Assembly: GCF_030815855.1 (NCBI RefSeq) | Contig: NZ_JAUSXG010000001.1 | Location: 5,766,001-5,830,000, forward strand | Reading direction: 5' to 3' | DNA: 64,000 nt | From: Variovorax paradoxus | GTDB lineage: Bacteria; Pseudomonadota; Gammaproteobacteria; Burkholderiales; Burkholderiaceae_C | Shown here: piece by piece, positions 47,760 to 58,216 of the stretch | How positions within the stretch are numbered: the stretch's first letter is position 1 | Layout: each line of letters opens with the position of its first letter | The notes under the pieces: generated by a model | Told to the model about the DNA's origin: nothing | What the model saw: the letters and a program-made list of their open reading frames with translations, nothing else | The model's database searches: none | Made by a program: the position numbers and the translations under genes

Positions 47760-48611
47760 TCAGCGCGCGCGTGTGCCCATGACGGCGGCCGAGATGATCA
47801 GCCCCGCGGCGAGCGCGATGCTCCAGGTGAGCGGCCGGCCGGTCACGGCCAGCAGCAGCGCGGTGGAACCCAGCGGCGTGAGGTAGCTCAGGATGCCGAT
47901 CTGCCGCGCATCCCCGCGCTTGAGCGCCATGTCCCAGACGAAGAATGCCGCGCCGAGCGGGCCCAGGCCGCACAGCGCGACCAGCAGCCAGTCTTTGGCG
48001 GAGAGCACCGCCGAGGGCTCGAGCAGCGCATGGCAAGCCAGCGACAGCACGCCCGAGACCAGGCCGAACAAGCCGATGGCCGAGGTCGGAAACGCCGCCA
48101 CGCGCTTCGTCCAGAGCGAGTAGCTGGCCCAGATGAACGCCGAGCCGAGCGCCGGCAGAAAGCCCCAGTACTCGGCCGAGGCACCGGGCGTGGCAGCGGA
48201 GCCGTCGCGCGCGCCGAGAATCGCGATCGCGGCCCCCGCGAAGCCCAGCAAGGCCGCGACCACATGCAGCGGCCGCAGCGACATGCCCGGCAGCAGCGCC
48301 GGCGCCAGCACCACCATGAAGAGCGGCCACAGGTAGTTGACCAGGTTGGCCTCGACCGGGGGGGCATGCCGCAGCGCGATGAACAGCAGGAAGTGAAAAC
48401 CGAACAGGCCATAGATGCCCAGCCCCAGCGTGCGCGGCGGTACTTTCCAGGCGCTGCGGTCGCGCAGCACGAGCGGCCAGCTCGGGATGCTGCCGATGAT
48501 CAGCGCGAGGCCGGTCAGCAGGAAGGGCGGCAGGTGCGAGAGCGCGGTGCCCAGCGAGGCGAGCGTGGCCCACAGGGCGATGGCGGCAAGGGCAAGAAGC
48601 GTGGGCGACAT
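47760..48611 (-). CDS. EamA-family transporter (DMT superfamily)
   Basis: A 283-residue permease with about ten hydrophobic segments in two EamA halves; the second repeat starts near GFLPALGSAFIWASYSLWTKR. Members export amino acids, nucleotides or other metabolites. I chose the ATG at 48611, giving MSPTLLAL; an open frame extends to 48656. It lies 75 bases after the AraC-type gene. The substrate cannot be assigned. Confidence 0.85.
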   Translation of the reverse strand: MSPTLLALAAIALWATLASLGTALSHLPPFLLTGLALIIGSIPSWPLVLRDRSAWKVPPRTLGLGIYGLFGFHFLLFIALRHAPPVEANLVNYLWPLFMVVLAPALLPGMSLRPLHVVAALLGFAGAAIAILGARDGSAATPGASAEYWGFLPALGSAFIWASYSLWTKRVAAFPTSAIGLFGLVSGVLSLACHALLEPSAVLSAKDWLLVALCGLGPLGAAFFVWDMALKRGDARQIGILSYLTPLGSTALLLAVTGRPLTWSIALAAGLIISAAVMGTRAR

Positions 48612-48686
48612 CGCTTCGAGCTTAAGCGGCGCGGTCGTCGCGCAACACCGGCGCATCGTCGCGCGGCGACGGTCCTTGCGGCAAGC

Positions 48687-49403
48687 TCAACGGCCCAGCC
48701 TGCGCAATGCCGCAGTGAGCGCCGAGGGCGAACGGTAGCCCGTGCGGCGCGCCGTTTCCGCCACGCCCACGCCGGCCAGGCGCAGTTCGCGCGCATGCGC
48801 GAGCCGCATCGTGCGCAGCCACTGCATCGCGCTCACGCCCTGCTCGTCGCGGCAGCGCTCTGCGAACTGGCCGGGGCTCAAGCACGCCACGCTGGCGAGA
48901 TCGGCAACGCTCAGCGCTTCGTGCCAGCGCGAACCCGCCCAGGCGGCGAGTGCGGTCCAGTCGATGACGCGGCGGCTTCTCGCGTTGGCCGGTGCGGCCG
49001 CGCCCCACGTTTCGAGCAACAGGGCGGGGCCGTGTTGCAGTGCCATGACGGAGGCTTGCGGATGCTGCGTGCAGGTCGCCAGGTACTGCGCCAGTGCCTG
49101 CAGCCGCAAAGCATCTGCGGGCGGGCGCTCGGCGCAACGCGCCCAGGTGGCTTGGCGGGTATCGAGCACGAGGCATAGGCTGCCGCTGCGCGATTCGAAG
49201 TCGTGCCGGTCGCCGGGTGCCACCACCCGGGCATCGCCGGCGCCGACACGCGCGCCGCGGCCTTCCACTTCGAGTTCGAGCACGCCGGCCAGGCCGATCA
49301 GCACCTGGAAGTGGTCGTGCGCATGGCTGCCGCGCGAGGCGCCGTAGTCGCGCAGCGAAAGCCCGAGCGGCTGATCGTGGGGAGGCGTTGCTGGCGTTCG
49401 CAT
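48687..49403 (-). CDS. AraC-family transcriptional regulator with cupin domain
   Basis: A 238-residue regulator. The N-terminal half is a cupin-like sensor with SHAHDHFQVLIGLAGVLELEVEG, and the C-terminal AraC helix-turn-helix pair spans about residues 150-235, with LSVADLASVACLSPGQFAERCRDEQG and RLAGVGVAETARRTGYRSPSALTAALRR. Upstream, 37 bases away, is the permease of the glyco-operon and downstream the EamA exporter, so it may control either. Confidence 0.82.
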   Translation of the reverse strand: MRTPATPPHDQPLGLSLRDYGASRGSHAHDHFQVLIGLAGVLELEVEGRGARVGAGDARVVAPGDRHDFESRSGSLCLVLDTRQATWARCAERPPADALRLQALAQYLATCTQHPQASVMALQHGPALLLETWGAAAPANARSRRVIDWTALAAWAGSRWHEALSVADLASVACLSPGQFAERCRDEQGVSAMQWLRTMRLAHARELRLAGVGVAETARRTGYRSPSALTAALRRLGR

Positions 49404-49440: not shown

Positions 49441-50574
49441 TCACGCGAGCCGCAGCAGCAGCGCGGAGAGCGCGCACACCAGCAGGAACGGAATGCTGAT
49501 GCGGTGGAATTCGCGCAGCCCGTTCGGCAGCCTGGCGAGCCGCAACGCGATCAGGTTGGCCAGCGAGCCCAGCACGCAGCCGAAGCCGCCGACGCTCACG
49601 CCGGCCGCGAGCGCGGGCAGGTCGCGCATATGGCCGTCGAGCAGGATCGCGGCCGGCACGTTGCTGATGAATTGCGAGGCCACGATGGCGGCGAGGTAGG
49701 CGCGCCATCCCTCGGTGATCGGCCAATGGTTCAGCAGCGATACGACGGCAGGCAGCTCGGCCAGTTGCCGCAGGTCCACGAACATCAGCGCGATGATCGC
49801 AAGCAAGGCCCAGTCGATGCCTCGCAGCACGCGCGGATACGTCACCAGGAATACGCCGAACACCACGCCCAGGCCCGCGAGCAGCCAATGCCGGTCGAGC
49901 GCGATGACGAAGCCGACGAACAGCACACCCGCCAAGGCCAGCAGCCGGGGCTGCACTGGAGTGGCCTCGGCCTCGGGCTTCAGAGCGATGGGCGTGCGCG
50001 GCACCAGCAGCCAGGCCGCCGTGAAGAGCCAGAACAGCATCACCGCGACGGTCGGCCCCATCATTGCCATGAAGGCGAAGAAACTTTCGCCCGAGCGGTG
50101 CCACAGATAGAGGTTCTGCGGATTGCCGATGGGCGTGAGCGCGGAGCCCGCATTCACGGCCAGCGCCTCGAGCACCACGAGCCGCGCAAGCGGCAGATGC
50201 GCCTGGTTGGCGAGCACGCGCGTGAGCGGCACCAGCAGGAACAGACTCACGTCGTTGGTCACGAGGGCCGAGAGAAAGGCCGCGCTCGCGGTCAGCAGCA
50301 GCGCGAGGCTGCGCTGGTTGTGCGTGCGCGCGAGCAGGCGCTGCGCGGCGGCCTGCAGCATGCCGCTTTTTTCCACGCCTTGCGTGATGGCGAGCAGGCC
50401 CGCCAACGCGCCCACGGTCTGCCAGTCGACCAGCTTGAGCCAATCCATCGGCGCGCGCGGGCGCACAAAGGCAAACAGCACCGCAACGGCGGCCAGCAGC
50501 CACAGCAGGCCGTTGCCGCCGCCGCCATGTTCGGCCGGCGCCGCCGCTTTGTTTTCAGCGGCCGACAAGCTCAC
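49441..50574 (-). CDS. SLC13/ArsB-like anion permease
   Basis: A 377-residue membrane protein with about ten hydrophobic segments, of the ion-transporter superfamily that includes SLC13 carboxylate carriers, NhaD and ArsB. It shows LLTASAAFLSALVTNDVSLFLLVPLTR and GSALTPIGNPQNLYLW, the family's repeated N-x-[DG]-x-x motif regions. The start is probably the GTG at 50574, 17 bases inside the ligase gene. It is likely the transporter for the product or substrate of the operon upstream. Confidence 0.8.
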   Translation of the reverse strand: MSLSAAENKAAAPAEHGGGGNGLLWLLAAVAVLFAFVRPRAPMDWLKLVDWQTVGALAGLLAITQGVEKSGMLQAAAQRLLARTHNQRSLALLLTASAAFLSALVTNDVSLFLLVPLTRVLANQAHLPLARLVVLEALAVNAGSALTPIGNPQNLYLWHRSGESFFAFMAMMGPTVAVMLFWLFTAAWLLVPRTPIALKPEAEATPVQPRLLALAGVLFVGFVIALDRHWLLAGLGVVFGVFLVTYPRVLRGIDWALLAIIALMFVDLRQLAELPAVVSLLNHWPITEGWRAYLAAIVASQFISNVPAAILLDGHMRDLPALAAGVSVGGFGCVLGSLANLIALRLARLPNGLREFHRISIPFLLVCALSALLLRLA

Positions 50575-52093
50575 GCAACTCGCGCTTGAGTACTTTGCCG
50601 ATCGCGCTGCGCGGCAGTTCGTCGATGAAGTGGAGGTGTGCCAGGCGCTGCGTCTTGCCGAGCTGGGCGTTGACCCATTGCAGCAGAGCGTCTTCGGTGG
50701 TGCCGTCGCCCTCGCGGCGCACCACGAAGGCCACGGGCGTTTCGCCCCATTGCTCCGAAGGCACGCCGACCACCGCCGTGTCGGCCACCGCGGCATGGCC
50801 GCGCAGCACCGCTTCCAGATCGCTCGGGTAGATATTGAAGCCGCCGCTGATGATCATGTCCTTCTTGCGGTCGAACAGCGTCAGAAAGCCGTCGGCATCG
50901 AAGCGCCCCACGTCGCCGGTGCGGATGAAGCGCTTGCCCGTCGCGTCGAACCATTCCGCCTCGCGCGTCTTGGCGGGCTGGCGGTGGTAGCCGGTCATCA
51001 TGCCGGCCGAATGCCCCACGACCTCGCCGGCCTGTTCGATGTTGGCGCGAGGGATCTCCCGGGCTTCTTCGTCGATCAGCCGGATGTCGCTGCCCTCGGC
51101 CGGGCAGCCCACCGTATGCAGCTTGCCGGGGTGCAGGTGGGCTTCGAGAATGCAGGTGCCGCCGCCTTCGGTCATGCCGTAGAACTCGATCAGCCCGCCC
51201 GGCCAGCGCTCGAGCACATCGGCCTTGAGCGCGGCGTTGAAGGGTGCGCTGGTACTGAACTTGAAGCGGAAGGATGAGAGGTCGTGCGCGTCGAAGCGCG
51301 GGTGCGCCATCAGGCGCTGGTATTGCACCGGCACCAGCATGGTGTGCGTCACGCGGTGCTGCTCGGCCAGCTGCAGGTAGCCGAGCGCGTCGAACTTCGG
51401 CATCAGCACCACGCAGCCGCCGAAGGCGAGGGTGGGGAAGAACACCACCAGCGTGGTGTTCGAATACAGCGGTGTCGACAGCAGCGTGACGGTGCCGGGG
51501 CCGTACCCGTACTTGGCGCCGCGCTGCACATGGGCCCAGCGCATGCCGTGGCCCTGCACGATGCCCTTGGGCTCGCCGGTAGTACCCGAGGAATAGATGA
51601 TGTTGAAGGGCGATGAAGGCTGCACCTCGACCGCTTCGGGCTGCGCGCCGACGGGTGCCAGCCATTCGTCGAGGCTGCGGCCCGCCTTGGAGCCGTCCAA
51701 TGCAATGCGCGGGATGGATCCTTCTACCGGCGCTCCGATGACCTCGGCCGCGCCGGTATCGACGAAGAGAACGCGCGCCTCGGCATCGTCGATCATCCGC
51801 GCGAGGCTGGCCGGCGTGGACCCGGGCGCCAGCGGCGCGACCGCGATACCCGCGCGCAATGCACCGAGGAAGACTGCCGCATAGTTCACCGAAGACGCCG
51901 CGCAGACCGCGATGGCGTCGCCGGGCTTGAGGCCGCCCTGCTGAAGGCTGGCGGCGATGCGGTCCATCAGCGCATCGAGTGCGCCGTAGTCCAGGACTCG
52001 CTCGTTGTCGATCAGCGCAATGCGCCGGGGCGCCTGTGCTGCGTGCTCGCGAACCCGCTGGGCGATAGTGCCGAACTCCTGCATCGTGTTCAT
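50555..52093 (-). CDS. Class I adenylate-forming ligase (AMP-dependent synthetase)
   Basis: A 512-residue acid-thiol ligase or adenylase. It has the P-loop YSSGTTGEPKG (residues 167-177), YGMTEGGG, the hinge region GDVGRFDADGFLTLFDRKKDMIISGG, and a C-terminal catalytic Lys in PRSAIGKVLKREL. The N-terminal part lacks a carrier domain. Its start overlaps the stop of the aminotransferase gene (ATGA), and the permease start lies inside its 3' end. In this setting it could activate an acid that is attached to the amino group of a sugar. Confidence 0.88.
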   Translation of the reverse strand: MNTMQEFGTIAQRVREHAAQAPRRIALIDNERVLDYGALDALMDRIAASLQQGGLKPGDAIAVCAASSVNYAAVFLGALRAGIAVAPLAPGSTPASLARMIDDAEARVLFVDTGAAEVIGAPVEGSIPRIALDGSKAGRSLDEWLAPVGAQPEAVEVQPSSPFNIIYSSGTTGEPKGIVQGHGMRWAHVQRGAKYGYGPGTVTLLSTPLYSNTTLVVFFPTLAFGGCVVLMPKFDALGYLQLAEQHRVTHTMLVPVQYQRLMAHPRFDAHDLSSFRFKFSTSAPFNAALKADVLERWPGGLIEFYGMTEGGGTCILEAHLHPGKLHTVGCPAEGSDIRLIDEEAREIPRANIEQAGEVVGHSAGMMTGYHRQPAKTREAEWFDATGKRFIRTGDVGRFDADGFLTLFDRKKDMIISGGFNIYPSDLEAVLRGHAAVADTAVVGVPSEQWGETPVAFVVRREGDGTTEDALLQWVNAQLGKTQRLAHLHFIDELPRSAIGKVLKRELRELVGR

Positions 52094-53244
52094 GTCTGGC
52101 TGTGCCTGTTGACGTCGCCGACGGCTTGCCGTACGGCGTGAATGATGTATTCGATTTCCTCGTCGCCGAGCATCGGGTAAAGCGGCAGGGCCAGCGAACA
52201 GCGGGCCAGCCGCTCGCTGCTCGGCAGCGAGCCCGTGCCTTGCCAGTGGCGCAGCGCCTCGTGCAGATGCAACGGTTGTTCATAGTAAACGCGCGTGTCG
52301 ATTCCCTTTGTCGCCAGTTGGACCGCCAGTGCATTCCGCTCGCGCGGGCCGCGCAGGACGACGACGAAATAGTTCCAGGCGTGGCCGGCCGCGTTGCGCG
52401 GCAACTGCATCGGGCAATCCGCCCACGCCTCCAGATAGCGCGCAGCGATGGCGCGACGCCGGGCGATGGCGGCAGGAAAATCGTCCAACGCCACCTGAAG
52501 GAGGCACGCCTGCAATTCGTCCATGCGGCTGTTCTGGCCCAGACAAATGTGCAAGCCGTCCTGGTACCCGTGGTTGCGCAGCAGTCGCGCCTTCTCGGCG
52601 TGGCGCGGATTCCTGAAGGCCAAGGCTCCCGCGTCCCCGGCGGCGCCCAGCGTCTTGGTTGGGTAGAAGCTCATCGCCGCTACGTCGCCCCAGCTGCCGG
52701 CGGGCCGCGTGTGTCCGTCCGCGCCGCAAGCACCGGCACCCAGGCACTGGGCCACGTCTTCGACAAGGTGCAACTGCTCGTCGCGGCAATAGGCGGCCAG
52801 TTCGGGCAAACCGGTGGGATCGCCGAAGAGTCCGACCGCGAGAATGGCGCGGGTGCGCGGCGTTCTCGCATTCCGGAAGTGCGCGAGCGGCGCGAGAAAG
52901 TCGTCGTCGGCACTGTCGACGAACACCGGCCGCGCACCGGCAGCGATCACCGCCTCGGCGCAGGCGGCGAAGGTATAGGAGGGAAGCAGCACTTCGTCTT
53001 CCGGGTGCCCTCCGGCCGCACCGCCGACACCCAGGCTCTTGAAGGCCAGCAGCAGCGCGTCGGAGCCTGATTTCACGGCCACCGTCTCGCGCTGTTGCAG
53101 CTGGTCCGACAGCCGGGCTTCCAACGCGCGAACCTGCGGACCGAGTACGTAGACGCCGCTGCGCAACACCGTGGCACACGCCTGGATCTGGCGTTCGGCC
53201 ATGGACTCGGCACATCCGGCCGAACGGAACAACGGGATCTTCAC
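52090..53244 (-). CDS. DegT/DnrJ/EryC1/StrS-type sugar aminotransferase
   Basis: A PLP-dependent enzyme that places an amino group on a keto-sugar nucleotide. The 384-residue product has the PLP-binding VKSGSDALLLA (about residues 57-67), VEDVAQCLGAG (His-less variant of the active-site loop) and the Lys197 Schiff-base site in FYPTKTLGAAGDAGAL. The GTG start at 53244 overlaps the stop of the oxidoreductase (GTGA). The partner oxidoreductase upstream would supply the 3-keto sugar. Confidence 0.88.
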   Translation of the reverse strand: MKIPLFRSAGCAESMAERQIQACATVLRSGVYVLGPQVRALEARLSDQLQQRETVAVKSGSDALLLAFKSLGVGGAAGGHPEDEVLLPSYTFAACAEAVIAAGARPVFVDSADDDFLAPLAHFRNARTPRTRAILAVGLFGDPTGLPELAAYCRDEQLHLVEDVAQCLGAGACGADGHTRPAGSWGDVAAMSFYPTKTLGAAGDAGALAFRNPRHAEKARLLRNHGYQDGLHICLGQNSRMDELQACLLQVALDDFPAAIARRRAIAARYLEAWADCPMQLPRNAAGHAWNYFVVVLRGPRERNALAVQLATKGIDTRVYYEQPLHLHEALRHWQGTGSLPSSERLARCSLALPLYPMLGDEEIEYIIHAVRQAVGDVNRHSQT

Positions 53245-54197
53245 GCGTGCTGTACCTGGGACGCGCGGGTTACCGCGGCGAGGCCGTCGGCGCCGGAGGC
53301 AATGCGCCTGCCGTTGCCCTGCACGGCGCGGCGAAAGTCCTGGTACTGGCGTGCCAGCGCGTCGTCGCTGTCCGGCGTCGTCCTGCGGGGATCGCGCAAG
53401 TCCAGCACGTGTTGGCGCCCGCCATTGCACACCTGCAGCCGCGCGGAGGACGCCATGCTGTCATAGCCGCTCTCGAGTTCCGCGGCAAGGCCGCCCAGGC
53501 GCACCCGGACACGGGCACTGCGCACGTCGATCTGCCGGCTGACCACCTGCAACGGCGCGTCCGCCGGAATGGCGCAGAGCCAGGCGAGCAGATCGAGATC
53601 GTGCACCATCAGATCCAGCACGCTGTCCAGCGCATTCGCTTCGCGGCAGGAGAAGCGGCGGAATCGCAGAAACGGATGGGCGCTGCCCCGATGCCGCAGG
53701 GCTGCGCGGCGTATCCATGCCAGCGTGGCCGCATCGAACGCCGGATTGAAGCGCTCGATGTGGCCCGTGCTCAGGACGACGCCGCATTGCTGCGCCGTTC
53801 GGATCATCAGCATGCCGTCTCGACGGTCGGTACAGAGCGGCTTTTCGACCAGGACGTGGCAGCCGCGTCGCATGAGCGCCATCGCGACTTCGGCGTGCGT
53901 TCCGTCGCTGGTCGCGACCGTGGCCGACTCGATGCCTGGCGGCAGCGCGTCGATCCCGGACAACAGCGGCAGCGCGGCGAGATCGGCGACGGGCTTGGCT
54001 GACGGAGAACTGTCCACCATGCCGCACAGGCGGAAGCCCGGCAGGCTGCCGAGCTTGCGCGCGTGGGTGCTGCCGAAACGACCCAGGCCCACGAGGGCAT
54101 GAGCCAGATCGGCGGCGGCGAGAACGGACTCTGGCTCGGCGTCATCGCCGCAAGGGGCTGCCGGAAGCTTGTCGATTGCGGACGTTGTGAAGCTCAT
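53241..54197 (-). CDS. Gfo/Idh/MocA-family oxidoreductase (sugar 3-dehydrogenase-like)
   Basis: A 318-residue NAD(P)-dependent oxidoreductase with the Rossmann motif GLGRFG at residues 37-42 and the EKP motif (Glu118-Pro120) followed by a GHIERFNPAF segment typical of the WlbA/WbpB-like group, which oxidises C3 of a UDP-sugar. An unusual N-terminal lead of about 35 residues precedes the nucleotide domain. The pairing with a DegT aminotransferase mirrors the 3-amino-sugar pathway. It starts 57 bases after the PIG-L gene stop. Confidence 0.85.
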   Translation of the reverse strand: MSFTTSAIDKLPAAPCGDDAEPESVLAAADLAHALVGLGRFGSTHARKLGSLPGFRLCGMVDSSPSAKPVADLAALPLLSGIDALPPGIESATVATSDGTHAEVAMALMRRGCHVLVEKPLCTDRRDGMLMIRTAQQCGVVLSTGHIERFNPAFDAATLAWIRRAALRHRGSAHPFLRFRRFSCREANALDSVLDLMVHDLDLLAWLCAIPADAPLQVVSRQIDVRSARVRVRLGGLAAELESGYDSMASSARLQVCNGGRQHVLDLRDPRRTTPDSDDALARQYQDFRRAVQGNGRRIASGADGLAAVTRASQVQHA

Positions 54198-54254
54198 CGA
54201 CGGCGTGCCGGGTGCCGCGAGCGTGCAAACGCCAAATCGGCACGCATCGATGCT

Positions 54255-55031
54255 TCAGCGATGCTGGCCGCGAAGCCGGTCGGCCACGGCTTGCAGGTGG
54301 GCACCGCGAATGACGTGCTTGTAGACGCCGGCCGCGACGCGCTCTTCGCCGGCGATCTCGAAGAAGGGCTTGGCCACGGGGGCTTCGGCCTGCTCGTAGC
54401 GCGTAGGCCCGGCGGCGAACAGGCATTCCCTGCCATAGGCTTGCGCGCCGAATTCCGCGATGAACCCATCGAGTTCCCGCTGCAGTTGTCCGCCGAAGCG
54501 CTGGGCGTAGCCGTGCATGTCGGCCAGCTTGGCCTGCAGCTCCTGCGCATCGAGCTCGACCACGAGATGGTTCTCGACCGCGAGGCGCGCCGGCGGGCTG
54601 GGATGGCCGACGGTCGGGTAGCTGAAAGACAGAACCGGATGGCCGCGCGCCGTGGCGTGGGCGGCAATCTGATTGGCCAGAAGGCGGCACAGGTCGTGGG
54701 AGGGGTTGTAGTCCTCCGCTTCGTCGGCGACGATGCACTCGATGCCCTGCGACACCACGTGCGCCGTCAGTCGGTCGAGCCATTGCGCGAACATGTGCGC
54801 GTTGCCATCCAATAGGGCTTGGTAGATCTCGGCATCGGCTACGGGCTCCACCACGTGAGAAGCCCAGTTCGCGCCCGCCCGCGCAAGGTTGTCGATCGTG
54901 GGGGCCAGCCGCTGCGCGTCGTTCGATCCTGCGCCGTTGGTGAGCACCACCACATCGGGCCGTTCATTCCGAAGCCACTTCCACAGCAGCAGCTCGTGGC
55001 CCGGATGAGCGGCGATCAGCAGGTGCTTCAT
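54255..55031 (-). CDS. PIG-L family deacetylase-like protein with altered active-site motif
   Basis: A 258-residue zinc-dependent GlcNAc-type deacetylase by fold. The N-terminal zinc motif reads AHPGHE (residues 8-13) instead of AHPDDE, so the catalytic Asp is Gly and the zinc-ligand Asp is His. A second conserved region, DYNPSHDLCRLLANQI, supplies a His. The two changes may keep zinc but alter chemistry. It overlaps the glycosyltransferase stop (ATGA) and precedes the oxidoreductase by about 57 bases. Confidence 0.78.
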   Translation of the reverse strand: MKHLLIAAHPGHELLLWKWLRNERPDVVVLTNGAGSNDAQRLAPTIDNLARAGANWASHVVEPVADAEIYQALLDGNAHMFAQWLDRLTAHVVSQGIECIVADEAEDYNPSHDLCRLLANQIAAHATARGHPVLSFSYPTVGHPSPPARLAVENHLVVELDAQELQAKLADMHGYAQRFGGQLQRELDGFIAEFGAQAYGRECLFAAGPTRYEQAEAPVAKPFFEIAGEERVAAGVYKHVIRGAHLQAVADRLRGQHR

Positions 55032-56452
55032 GTGCGATGGATTCTGGCCCGGAGGAAGGTCGATATTTGCCGCAGCGGCGCGGTGATGCGCCAGGAGCGG
55101 CTAGCATAAACCTCGCGCAACCGAGCGTCCATGCCGGCGGCATCGTCGAGCGCTTGCCGCTCGGCGTCCGCCAGGCGCGCGCCGAGTGCGGCATGCGCAG
55201 TCGATGCCGCCGCCAATGCGGCTTTGGCCGACTGAAACTGCGCGGCCTGCGCGGCTTCGGCCGCCTGCAATTGCGCGGCCAGTGCGGCGGCATGTTCCGA
55301 CTGCCGCTGCACTTCGGCACGCCAGGTCCCGATCTGAGCCTGATGCGCGCGCTGCTGATCGTTGAAGGCCTGCTGCAGCCCCGCAATGTGCTGATGCAGT
55401 GAAGCCAGGCCAAGATGCGCCGTCGTGGCGCTTCCGCGCCGAATCCAGTCGTCCATGTAGTGCGCGATTTCGCGCGCACGCTGCTCGGCGGGCACCGCGA
55501 CAATCGGGTGGGCATCCCTCATGCGCTTCGCGCAGTCCTCGAGCGCGCCCAGTGTCGTATCCAGGCCGCCGTTCGCGCGCATCCAGGCTGCGGCCTCGCG
55601 TGCATCCTCCGCATCGAACTTGTCGAGCTCGGCCACTACGTTCTGCCGCGTGATCGGCCGCGTCATGAGTGCCCGGCCGAAATTCCAGCGCCGCGCGTGC
55701 GCGACCGTGCCGGCCGTCACCATCTCGCCCATGCCCGAACTTGGATCGAGCACCACCACGGCGTTGCCGGTGACCAGCGCCTCCGTGGCGCAGCGCCCCT
55801 TGCCGAACACGATGTCGTAGCGGCCCAGCGCGGCGGCAGGATCGGGCAGGTGATTGCCGGTGCCGCTGCCGATCACGTCGAGCGTGAGGCCTCGCTCCGC
55901 GCACGCGGCGCGAACCTCTTCGAGTTGCGCATCGTGCGAGGCATAGTTGCTGAAGAGCAGCGCCGAGCGAGCCGCGGCCGGCAGGGGCGCGCGCGGCACG
56001 AAGCGTGAAAGATCGACCCCGTTCTGGATGAGTTCGATGCGCTCGCGTTCGATGCCGAACTCGTGCACCAACCGCTCGGCGCAGTTCTCGTCGACGGCGA
56101 TATGGCGCACGACCTGCGAGAACTGCGCAGGGCGGCCATGCTCCGCACTGCGGTCGTGGCAGATCGTGAGAACGGGCACGTCATGAAAATGAAGCAGGGC
56201 ACGCACCGTCTCGTGGTGGGTGTTGCCGATGATCACATCGGGCCGGGCGGCCATGTCGGCCACATCGGTGATGCACGCGATCGACGCATGGCGCAACTCG
56301 TCGGCCATGTCGCCGAAGGCCGTTGCAAAAATGGTCACGGCATGGCCGCGCCGCCGCAGCCACAGCGCGAGATCGCGGGTGAACATTTCGGCGCCCGTGC
56401 GGTGCACGAGGTAGCACATCGCGAGCAGGATGCGCAGCGGGGGCCCGGTCAT
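55028..56452 (-). CDS. Glycosyltransferase (GT4-like) with C-terminal coiled coil
   Basis: A GT-B-type sugar transferase of 474 residues. The first domain has LRILLAMCYLVHRTGAEMFTRDLALWLRRRGHAV, typical of family 4, and the second has an E-x7-E-like region within RCATEALVTGNAVVVLDPSSGMGEM. Residues 345-445 form a long Gln/Ala-rich coiled coil, and the end SRSWRITAPLR is found in many surface-polysaccharide transferases. I chose the ATG at 56452, with GGAGG 11 bases upstream; a TTG at 56491 overlapping the lipA stop would add 13 residues. First gene of the glyco-operon. Confidence 0.83.
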   Translation of the reverse strand: MTGPPLRILLAMCYLVHRTGAEMFTRDLALWLRRRGHAVTIFATAFGDMADELRHASIACITDVADMAARPDVIIGNTHHETVRALLHFHDVPVLTICHDRSAEHGRPAQFSQVVRHIAVDENCAERLVHEFGIERERIELIQNGVDLSRFVPRAPLPAAARSALLFSNYASHDAQLEEVRAACAERGLTLDVIGSGTGNHLPDPAAALGRYDIVFGKGRCATEALVTGNAVVVLDPSSGMGEMVTAGTVAHARRWNFGRALMTRPITRQNVVAELDKFDAEDAREAAAWMRANGGLDTTLGALEDCAKRMRDAHPIVAVPAEQRAREIAHYMDDWIRRGSATTAHLGLASLHQHIAGLQQAFNDQQRAHQAQIGTWRAEVQRQSEHAAALAAQLQAAEAAQAAQFQSAKAALAAASTAHAALGARLADAERQALDDAAGMDARLREVYASRSWRITAPLRQISTFLRARIHRT

Positions 56453-56487
56453 GGGGGCGTCTGCCTCCGCTGCGGGCGCGGACGTGT

Positions 56488-57507
56488 TCAATCGTTGGCT
56501 GGCGTGCCCGCCAGAACGTGTCCGGCCTGCTGATCCGCGTGGTAGCTCGAACGCACCATCGCGCCCACCGCCGCATGGCTGAAGCCCATCTTGTAGGCTT
56601 CTTCCTCGAACATCTTGAAGGTGTCGGGGTGCACGTAGCGGCGCACCGGCAGGTGCGAACCCGACGGCGACAGGTACTGGCCGATGGTCAGCATGTCGAT
56701 GCCGTGGGCGCGCATGTCGCGCATCACCTGAAGGATCTCTTCGTCGGTTTCGCCCAGGCCCACCATGATGCCGCTCTTGGTCGGCACGCTGGGGTGCAGC
56801 GCCTTGAACTTCTTGAGCAGGTTGAGGCTGAACTGGTAGTCGCTGCCCGGGCGCGCTTCTTTATAAAGGCGCGGCGCGGTCTCGAGGTTGTGGTTCATCA
56901 CGTCCGGCGGCGCGGCCTTGAGAATTTCCAAGGCGCGGTCGTCGCGGCCGCGGAAGTCGGGCACGAGAATTTCGATCTGCGTCATCGGCGAGAGCTCGCG
57001 GATGTTCTTGATGCAATCGACGAAATGCTGGCTGCCGCCGTCGCGCAGGTCGTCGCGGTCGACGCTGGTGATCACCACGTACTTCAGGCGCAGCTTGGCG
57101 ATGGTCTTGGCGAGGTTGAGCGGCTCGTCCTTATCGAGCGGATCGGGGCGGCCATGGCCCACGTCGCAGAACGGGCAGCGGCGCGTGCACTTGTCGCCCA
57201 TGATCATGAAGGTGGCGGTGCCGTTGCCGAAGCATTCGCCGATGTTCGGGCACGAGGCTTCTTCGCAGACGGTGTGCAGGTTGCTTTCGCGCAGGATCTG
57301 CTTGATTTCGTAGAAGCGGGTGGTGGGGCTGCCGGCCTTCACGCGGATCCACTCGGGCTTCTTGAGCACCTCGCCGCTCTGCACCACCTTGACGGGAATG
57401 CGCGAGAGCTTGGCCGCGGCCTTCTGCTTGGCCAGCGGGTTGTAGTTTTCGGCGCTTTGTGCCTCCCTGACGACGGGTGCAGGGACGACTTCGGTGGTGG
57501 TGCTCAT
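56488..57507 (-). CDS. lipA: Lipoyl synthase
   Basis: A radical SAM enzyme that inserts two sulphurs into protein-bound octanoyl groups. The 339-residue product has the auxiliary cluster Cys81, Cys86 and Cys92 ([13 protein letters not shown]) and the radical SAM cluster Cys107, Cys111 and Cys114 (KCTRRCPFC). The N-terminal 40 residues are an extension found in betaproteobacteria. It starts seven bases after lipB. Confidence 0.97.
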
Positions 57508-57514
57508 TGGATTG

Positions 57515-58216
57515 CTAGGGCGCCAGGTAGGTGGTGAGCTTTTGGCTCAGGACCCGGGCGGCGTCTTCCCATGTGGTTTGGACCCCGATTGTAGAAAGAT
57601 CGACCGTTTGCAGCCCGGCATAGCCGCAAGGGTTGATCCGGGAGAAGGGTTCGAGGTCCATTTCCACGTTGAGCGCCACGCCGTGGTAGGTGGCGTGGCG
57701 GCTCACCTTGATGCCCAGCGCGGCGATCTTTCCGAGGCCTCGGAACGGGTCGCTGGCGGGCAGCGGGCCGGTCAGCGCCGCATGGGAGAACGGGTCGTCC
57801 AGCCGGACGTAGATGCCCGGCGCGCCCGCCACGCGATGGCCGGTGACGCCGAAGTGGGCCAGCGTGCGCAGCACCGATTCCTCGATGCGGTACACATATT
57901 CCTTCACGTAGTAGCCGGCACGGCGCAGGTCGACCAGCGGATAGCCCACCACCTGGCCCGGGCCGTGGAAGGTGACCTGGCCGCCGCGATCGGTCTGCAC
58001 CACGGGAATGCCGCCGGGGTTCAGGACGTGGTCCTGCTTGCCGGCGATGCCTTGCGTGAACACGGGTGCGTGCTCGCACATCCATAGCGCATCGGGCGTT
58101 TCCGGCCCGCGCTCGAGCGTGAACTGCTTCATTGCCGCGAAGGTCTCGGCATAGTCGGCGCGGCCGAGCCACCGCGGCGCGATGGCGGTGATCGTCGGTT
58201 GCTCTGCGACCGTCAT
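57515..58216 (-). CDS. lipB: Octanoyl-ACP:protein N-octanoyltransferase
   Basis: LipB moves octanoate from acyl carrier protein to lipoate-dependent enzymes. The 233-residue product has [18 protein letters not shown], the catalytic Lys163 in [10 protein letters not shown] and Cys197 in RINPCGYAG, spaced as in E. coli (Lys135/Cys169). It lies between ybeD and lipA in the usual gene order. Confidence 0.96.

Follow-up and report, generated by a model that had tools for sequence, protein, structure and literature searches.

The 64,000-nucleotide stretch of Variovorax paradoxus DNA analysed here, which we call the window, is part of a 5.95 Mb single-contig genome and carries, directly downstream of the lipoyl synthase gene lipA, six co-directed genes on the minus strand (Table 1). 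They encode a glycosyltransferase (GT), a PIG-L-like protein, a MocA-type oxidoreductase, a DegT-type aminotransferase, an acyl-CoA-ligase-like protein and a permease. A first-pass annotation had read the six as one tightly coupled operon for a probable acylated 3-amino-sugar glycan. The open reading frames (ORFs) are indeed present at the positions claimed and the four overlapping junctions it listed are correct: the letters ATGA (55028-55031), GTGA (53241-53244) and ATGA (52090-52093) are seen directly in the DNA, and the GTG start of the permease lies 20 nt inside the end of the ligase gene. We found a fifth overlap, TTGA, at the lipA/GT junction, where the GT starts either with the TTG overlapping the lipA stop or with an in-frame ATG 13 codons downstream. 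We find that this apparent six-gene pathway probably consists of two units of different origin, a glycan cassette formed by the first four genes and a block that includes the ligase and the permease.

Table 1. Genes and features at the lipA locus, in positions of the window
Feature	Position	Strand	Basis
lipA (lipoyl synthase), insertion site	56488..57507	-	Pfam Radical_SAM + LIAS_N
lipA C-terminal tail (11 protein letters not shown), cassette-bearing Variovorax type			Tail comparison
Glycosyltransferase, GT4-like N-terminal domain	55028..56491	-	Pfam PF13439 Glyco_transf_4
Divergent LmbE/PIG-L-superfamily protein (PIG-L-like) with HPGHE...YNPSHD	54255..55031	-	hhalign
Deletion scar	54198..54254	-	DNA comparison with L008, L010 and L009
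Gfo/Idh/MocA oxidoreductase, probably 3-dehydrogenase of a sugar substrate	53241..54197	-	PF01408 GFO_IDH_MocA
DegT/DnrJ/EryC1 aminotransferase, GTG start	52090..53244	-	PF01041
AMP-binding acyl-CoA-ligase-like gene, genus block outside the cassette	50555..52093	-	PF00501 + PF13193
CitMHS/ArsB-like permease, genus block	49441..50574	-	PF03600
AraC-family regulator, same block as ligase and permease	48687..49403	-	PF12833
EamA exporter (YddG-like), same block as ligase and permease	47760..48656	-	PF00892

The two units differ in their distribution across the genus. The ligase is found in 98 of 101 Variovorax genomes (E 1e-150 or better) while the PIG-L-like gene, taken as the marker of the glycan cassette, is found in 16 of the 101 (E 1e-3), all of which have the ligase, so that 82 of the 98 ligase-bearing genomes are without it. 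Among named organisms, the closest relatives of the PIG-L-like gene come from Variovorax, and in 14 of the 16 cassette genomes the order GT-PIG-L-MocA-DegT directly follows lipA.

The surroundings of the ligase were retrieved from 20 genomes that lack the PIG-L-like gene. In eight of them lipA is followed by the ligase with a gap of 101-444 bp (measured between aligned protein ends) and no cassette gene between; since most contexts were picked among the highest-ranking ligase hits, this share does not give the frequency in the genus. Permease, AraC and YddG genes come next in six of these eight empty sites, with no permease and AraC hits in L090 and no AraC hit in L091. Five further contexts have about 2.7 kb between lipA and the ligase (by ORF reading, an MFS-like and a LysR-like ORF in L074), two have a GT34-like gene alone, and the gap is 7.4 kb in L084 and 1.3 kb in L089. 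For the remaining three (L085, L086, L087) lipA lies beyond the fetched stretch. The lipA-ligase gap is a variable site in the genus, occupied by the cassette, by the GT34-like gene, by about 2.7 kb or by 7.4 kb of sugar-related ORFs (L084). The product of the GT34-like gene has 461 aa and matches GT34 (GMA12/MNN10) weakly (L015:12933-14318; also L082, L083, L095, L097-L099 and L106); the gene stands after DegT in several Variovorax cassettes as well as alone after lipA in the two genomes mentioned.

The argument for one functional operon, in which the ligase would activate an acyl or amino acid for the 3-amino group and the permease would serve the same pathway, is the run of overlapping starts, including the DegT/ligase overlap, that the window shares with five close relatives (6 of the 14 genomes whose cassette lies at lipA; the ATGA letters were read in the window only). 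However, in seven of the eight other cassette-at-lipA genomes, those in which DegT and ligase are on one fetched stretch, the two genes are 1046-8743 bp apart, and in several of these a second GT gene lies between them. Neither a ligase nor a permease match turned up around the four genes of L023, L024, L026, L119 or L120, or around the Hydrogenophaga cassettes. Together with the absence of the PIG-L-like gene from most ligase-bearing genomes, these observations leave the six-gene reading very little credence. The ligase and permease are therefore taken as separate from the glycan pathway, given the contrast in genus distribution and the gene order of the empty sites, and on the same grounds ligase-driven acylation of the amino sugar, the role suggested in the first-pass annotation, is rejected as unsupported. 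What stands of that proposal is tight coupling and a glycan unit whose oxidoreductase and aminotransferase form a C-3-type pair. By the refuting condition that the first-pass annotation had set, the ligase and permease do group elsewhere, though their partners are a regulator and an exporter-like gene, with no demonstrated catabolic genes among them; the exporter scores 238.9 bits against NF050091, below the NCBIfam cut-off of 300. DegT and ligase may share a transcript where they overlap, without sharing a pathway. The ligase leader of cassette-free genomes gave only chance-level matches in window positions 52001-57600. Separately, about 5 kb lies between ligase and permease in L085, L087, L093, L098 and L101, with sensor-kinase-like and response-regulator-like ORFs in L085 and L093, so that even the ligase-permease pair is not fixed.

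The 3' end of lipA differs with the state of the site. Within Variovorax, the LipA tail is HADQQA-HAAGV/F in 15 of 15 genes read without the cassette at lipA (G288 included) and HADQQA-G/EHVLAG in 14 of 14 genomes with it; the tails of L075, L081 and L091 were missed by the search pattern and are left out of these counts. Of 29 other genera whose tails were read, 8 also have the exact HAAGV tail; two of these (L137, the same as G018, and L140, the same as G003) carry their cassette elsewhere. These sequences make HAAGV the probable older state in Variovorax, with the lipA 3' end altered at the insertion. A ligase tree of 40 of the 98 ligase-bearing genomes has six changes of cassette state, five of them forced by starred branches. 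The cassette has probably been gained or lost repeatedly within the genus. No phage or plasmid origin was seen: searches of 72,556 plasmid and 50,697 phage records with the PIG-L-like protein gave nothing at E 1e-3, and of 32 pattern matches in viral contigs none could be confirmed as related to an alignment of the LmbE-like proteins (A3). This genome also has a second lipA-like gene (G000:C1:2565286-2566191) with 65% identity to the lipA of the window.

The sole non-overlapping junction among the six genes, at 54198-54254, is a deletion scar. In relatives, a cysC-like adenosine 5'-phosphosulfate (APS) kinase gene and a gene for a Sulfotransfer_3 protein (Pfam on L018) stand between PIG-L and MocA. 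This sulfation pair is present in 4 of the 16 Variovorax cassettes (G230, G232, G237 and G280, the kinase in G230 and G237 being read from DNA) and in all three distinct Hydrogenophaga loci (L012, L017 and L018; L118 is a repeat of L012), and another sulfotransferase adjoins cassette genes in L023. Compared with L008 and L010, which carry the sulfation genes, the gap in the window and in L009, which has the same scar, consists of the first codons of the kinase gene followed by sequence that in relatives comes after the sulfotransferase gene. It is this joining of the kinase start to post-sulfotransferase sequence that identifies the junction as a scar. Outside the group of the window ten other Variovorax cassettes are without the pair; in the nine of them that were read, it is likewise missing at this place, with no clear scar. 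A sulfotransferase search of this genome gave no match, an empty answer that, having no positive control, shows nothing alone. Clusters for sulfated polysaccharides with cysC and sulfotransferases are exemplified by Vibrio sp. KMM 8419 (PMC11641403). Cassette relatives resemble such clusters in having the APS kinase and a sulfotransferase and, in another genus, an ATP-binding cassette (ABC) exporter; unlike them, the window has lost both sulfation genes and the cassette comprises few genes, not a whole cluster.

The order GT-PIG-L-MocA-DegT is found again in other Variovorax and in Hydrogenophaga, and further genera of the family have the four genes at identities of about 31-50%. Since the order recurs across these genera, it is not a chance arrangement. 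In four genomes of one genus, g19 (L024, L026, L119 and L120), an ABC-2-permease-like gene adjoins the four genes; an ATPase-like gene was called in three of these loci, a GT2-like gene follows and a cupin gene is present in three (ORF reading, with Pfam checked on L026 only). In L025, from another genus, a permease-like gene occurs with GT, PIG-L and MocA, the DegT match being only distant (29%), and no ABC gene was recognised in L023. The presence of polysaccharide-export-type ABC genes next to the four genes in g19 favours a surface glycan as the product. In the window no Wzm/Wzt-type genes stand beside lipA. This genome has one gene related to the g19 ABC permease (C1:4462679, 36% identity), in a locus at 4.46 Mb with an ATPase-like gene and many sugar genes (ORF reading). 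Export through such a separate ABC locus is a possible answer to the lack of a flippase that the first-pass annotation had pointed out.

Alternatively, the cassette might make a small diffusible amino-sugar or aminocyclitol compound. The combination of a GT4, an LmbE-like protein, DegT and MocA resembles the logic of aminoglycoside and mycothiol pathways, and the MocA and DegT proteins also match inositol dehydrogenases and scyllo-inositol transaminase. The butirosin enzyme BtrD and MshB are LmbE-like (PMC4101496). The ABC genes of g19 speak against a diffusible product, as do the recurrent sulfotransferases and the absence, by Pfam, of any resistance-like or drug-export-like gene among the four, and we consider it unlikely.

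The MocA and DegT proteins are consistent with a 3-amino-sugar route. Dehydrogenases of the GnnA/GnnB and WlbA/WlbC routes have a MocA fold with EKP and D-x3-H motifs, and WlbA and WlbC, like GnnA and GnnB, show an adjacent oxidoreductase and aminotransferase pairing. Here VEKP and DLMVHD are invariant in 14 of 14 MocA sequences and the DegT gene is adjacent. The best solved relative of MocA is 7bvj, which we take to be GnnA, no paper having been found to confirm it. For DegT the ranking of solved structures in the PDB is 2oga, 7b0d, 3frk (QdtB), 4qgr, 3uwc and then WbpE, and several of the best of these are C-3 sugar aminotransferases. The GT had no PDB sequence match at E 0.01. The chemistry of GnnA and GnnB, and the neighbouring genes for the Gfo/Idh/MocA oxidoreductase and the DegT aminotransferase, are described in PMC5644692, and the cassette pair has the same arrangement. 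It differs from GnnA/GnnB and from WlbA/WlbC in that its matches fall under the cut-offs and no acyltransferase gene is present in the cassette. One could suppose that the MocA/DegT pair supplies lipid A with 2,3-diamino-2,3-dideoxyglucose (GlcN3N), while the GT and the LmbE-like protein act elsewhere. The rank of 7bvj and the GnnA/GnnB chemistry of the cited source agree with this. But a change of the lipid A backbone would be unexpected in an accessory cassette of patchy occurrence that has a GT of its own and, in relatives, a sulfotransferase, and the best solved DegT relatives are other sugar aminotransferases; we think this very improbable.

The PIG-L-like protein has no Pfam or NCBIfam match, nor a direct match to PF02585, and its relation to the LmbE/PIG-L superfamily appears in profile-profile comparison. 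Using hhalign against 13 PF02585 proteins from relatives we obtained a probability of 93.2 and a score of 53.9, rising with the wider alignment A3 to 95.5 and 62.9 (E 1.4e-8 for this single comparison); the maximum score in 60 column shuffles was 20.9 for each run. With five narrow references the probability was about 1% or less. The match spans about 165 residues with both motif regions in register. The protein is a remote branch of the LmbE superfamily, and the kinship is remote only. According to PMC4101496, all LmbE-like enzymes characterised by the time of that paper have the motif HxD1D2 plus H, D1 being the base and D2 a metal ligand. In 11 of 11 aligned members of the present family this is replaced by HxxHE...YNPxHD, with D1 and D2 both absent; the first motif is HPGHE, with HSGHE or HPRHE in some members, and H9, H12, E13, D103, Y108, N109, P110, H112 and D113 are invariant in all 11. 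The family thus keeps possible metal ligands while both defining aspartates are gone. The protein is like the deacetylases MshB, BshB and BtrD in its profile match with both motif regions aligned, and unlike them in having HxxHE for HxDD, YNPxHD as second motif and no PF02585 match.

A search for relatives of this protein in a phylum sample was positive in 6 of 398 genomes including its own, giving five distant relatives, and two family samples, again counting the own genome, were positive in 5 of 200 and 8 of 399; an order sample gave nothing beyond the own genome (1 of 399); at most six candidates were scored per genome in the order, 399-genome family and phylum samples. At four of the five distant relatives a homologue of the GT of the window lies alongside, in an overlapping, adjacent or divergent arrangement, and at the fifth there is a GT2 gene; an Stf0 sulfotransferase is next in line at one of the five, L173. 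The surroundings of all five gave no match to MocA or DegT. Given the GT homologue beside four of the five, without MocA or DegT there, the pair of GT and LmbE-like protein looks like the deep core, which MocA and DegT accompany in the family studied. It is conceivable, though we would put it forward as speculation, that the HxxHE...YNPxHD proteins form a new family of enzymes whose fold is derived from LmbE, with a metal site of three histidines and the canonical base missing, and that they are paired with GT4 proteins across distant members of the phylum and with a sulfotransferase in several lineages. Such enzymes may perform a step that is not ordinary hydrolysis, or the deacetylation half of a bacterial N-deacetylation/N-sulfation pair built from unrelated parts.

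Taken together, we consider it likely that a cassette which is repeatedly gained or lost, and which modifies a cell-surface glycan, entered the locus at the 3' end of lipA, ahead of an older block of ligase, permease, AraC and YddG genes. The pattern of insertion, the recurrence of the cassette, the scar and the remote kinship to LmbE are shown by the sequences. In the model that we infer, which covers the direction of transfer, the substrates, the product, the transcript and the surface location, MocA would oxidise a sugar nucleotide at C-3, with UDP-N-acetylglucosamine (UDP-GlcNAc) as the first candidate, and DegT would transaminate the oxidised sugar to a 3-amino sugar. The GT would attach this sugar to a glycan that is synthesised elsewhere, after which the LmbE-like protein would act on the product at an N-acetyl or similar group. 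In relatives the APS kinase and the sulfotransferase would add sulfate; with the sulfation genes deleted in the window, the product here is expected to be without that sulfate. Export would be by an ABC-transporter system, which adjoins the cassette in another genus and would be at a separate locus here. The ligase and permease would have been captured behind the cassette, possibly on its transcript, with another function.

Several observations weigh against this model. Two of the 16 cassettes (G247 and G288) are not at lipA. HVL-type lipA tails occur in other genera as well and the Hydrogenophaga loci L012 and L018 have yet other tails, so that the tail marks the insertion within Variovorax only and not across the family. 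The LmbE-like protein lacks the residues that define known deacetylases. MocA and DegT match named enzymes under the curated cut-offs (68.9 bits against a cut-off of 450 for the UDP-GlcNAc 3-dehydrogenase model NF040723, and 166.3 against 423.5 for PseC), and UDP-GlcNAc as the substrate is thereby not established. Finally, the C-terminal SWRxTxPxR motif of the GT was not found in the ABC-export locus of this genome. Among the titles listed in our search of the literature on Variovorax surface glycans, sulfotransferases, genomic islands and lipA hotspots, none concerned this locus.

The kind of system is ordinary, a mobile surface-glycan cassette, to which a misleading operon and an unnamed protein branch are added. 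Tight gene overlaps can mislead, as a mobile glycan cassette has here come to overlap resident genes of another function. A single genus offers a natural series of empty site, cassette with sulfation genes and cassette with the sulfation deletion, which makes the product comparable between strains. The locus also brings to light an LmbE-like family without a name, in which the active-site motif is altered and the partner is a glycosyltransferase.

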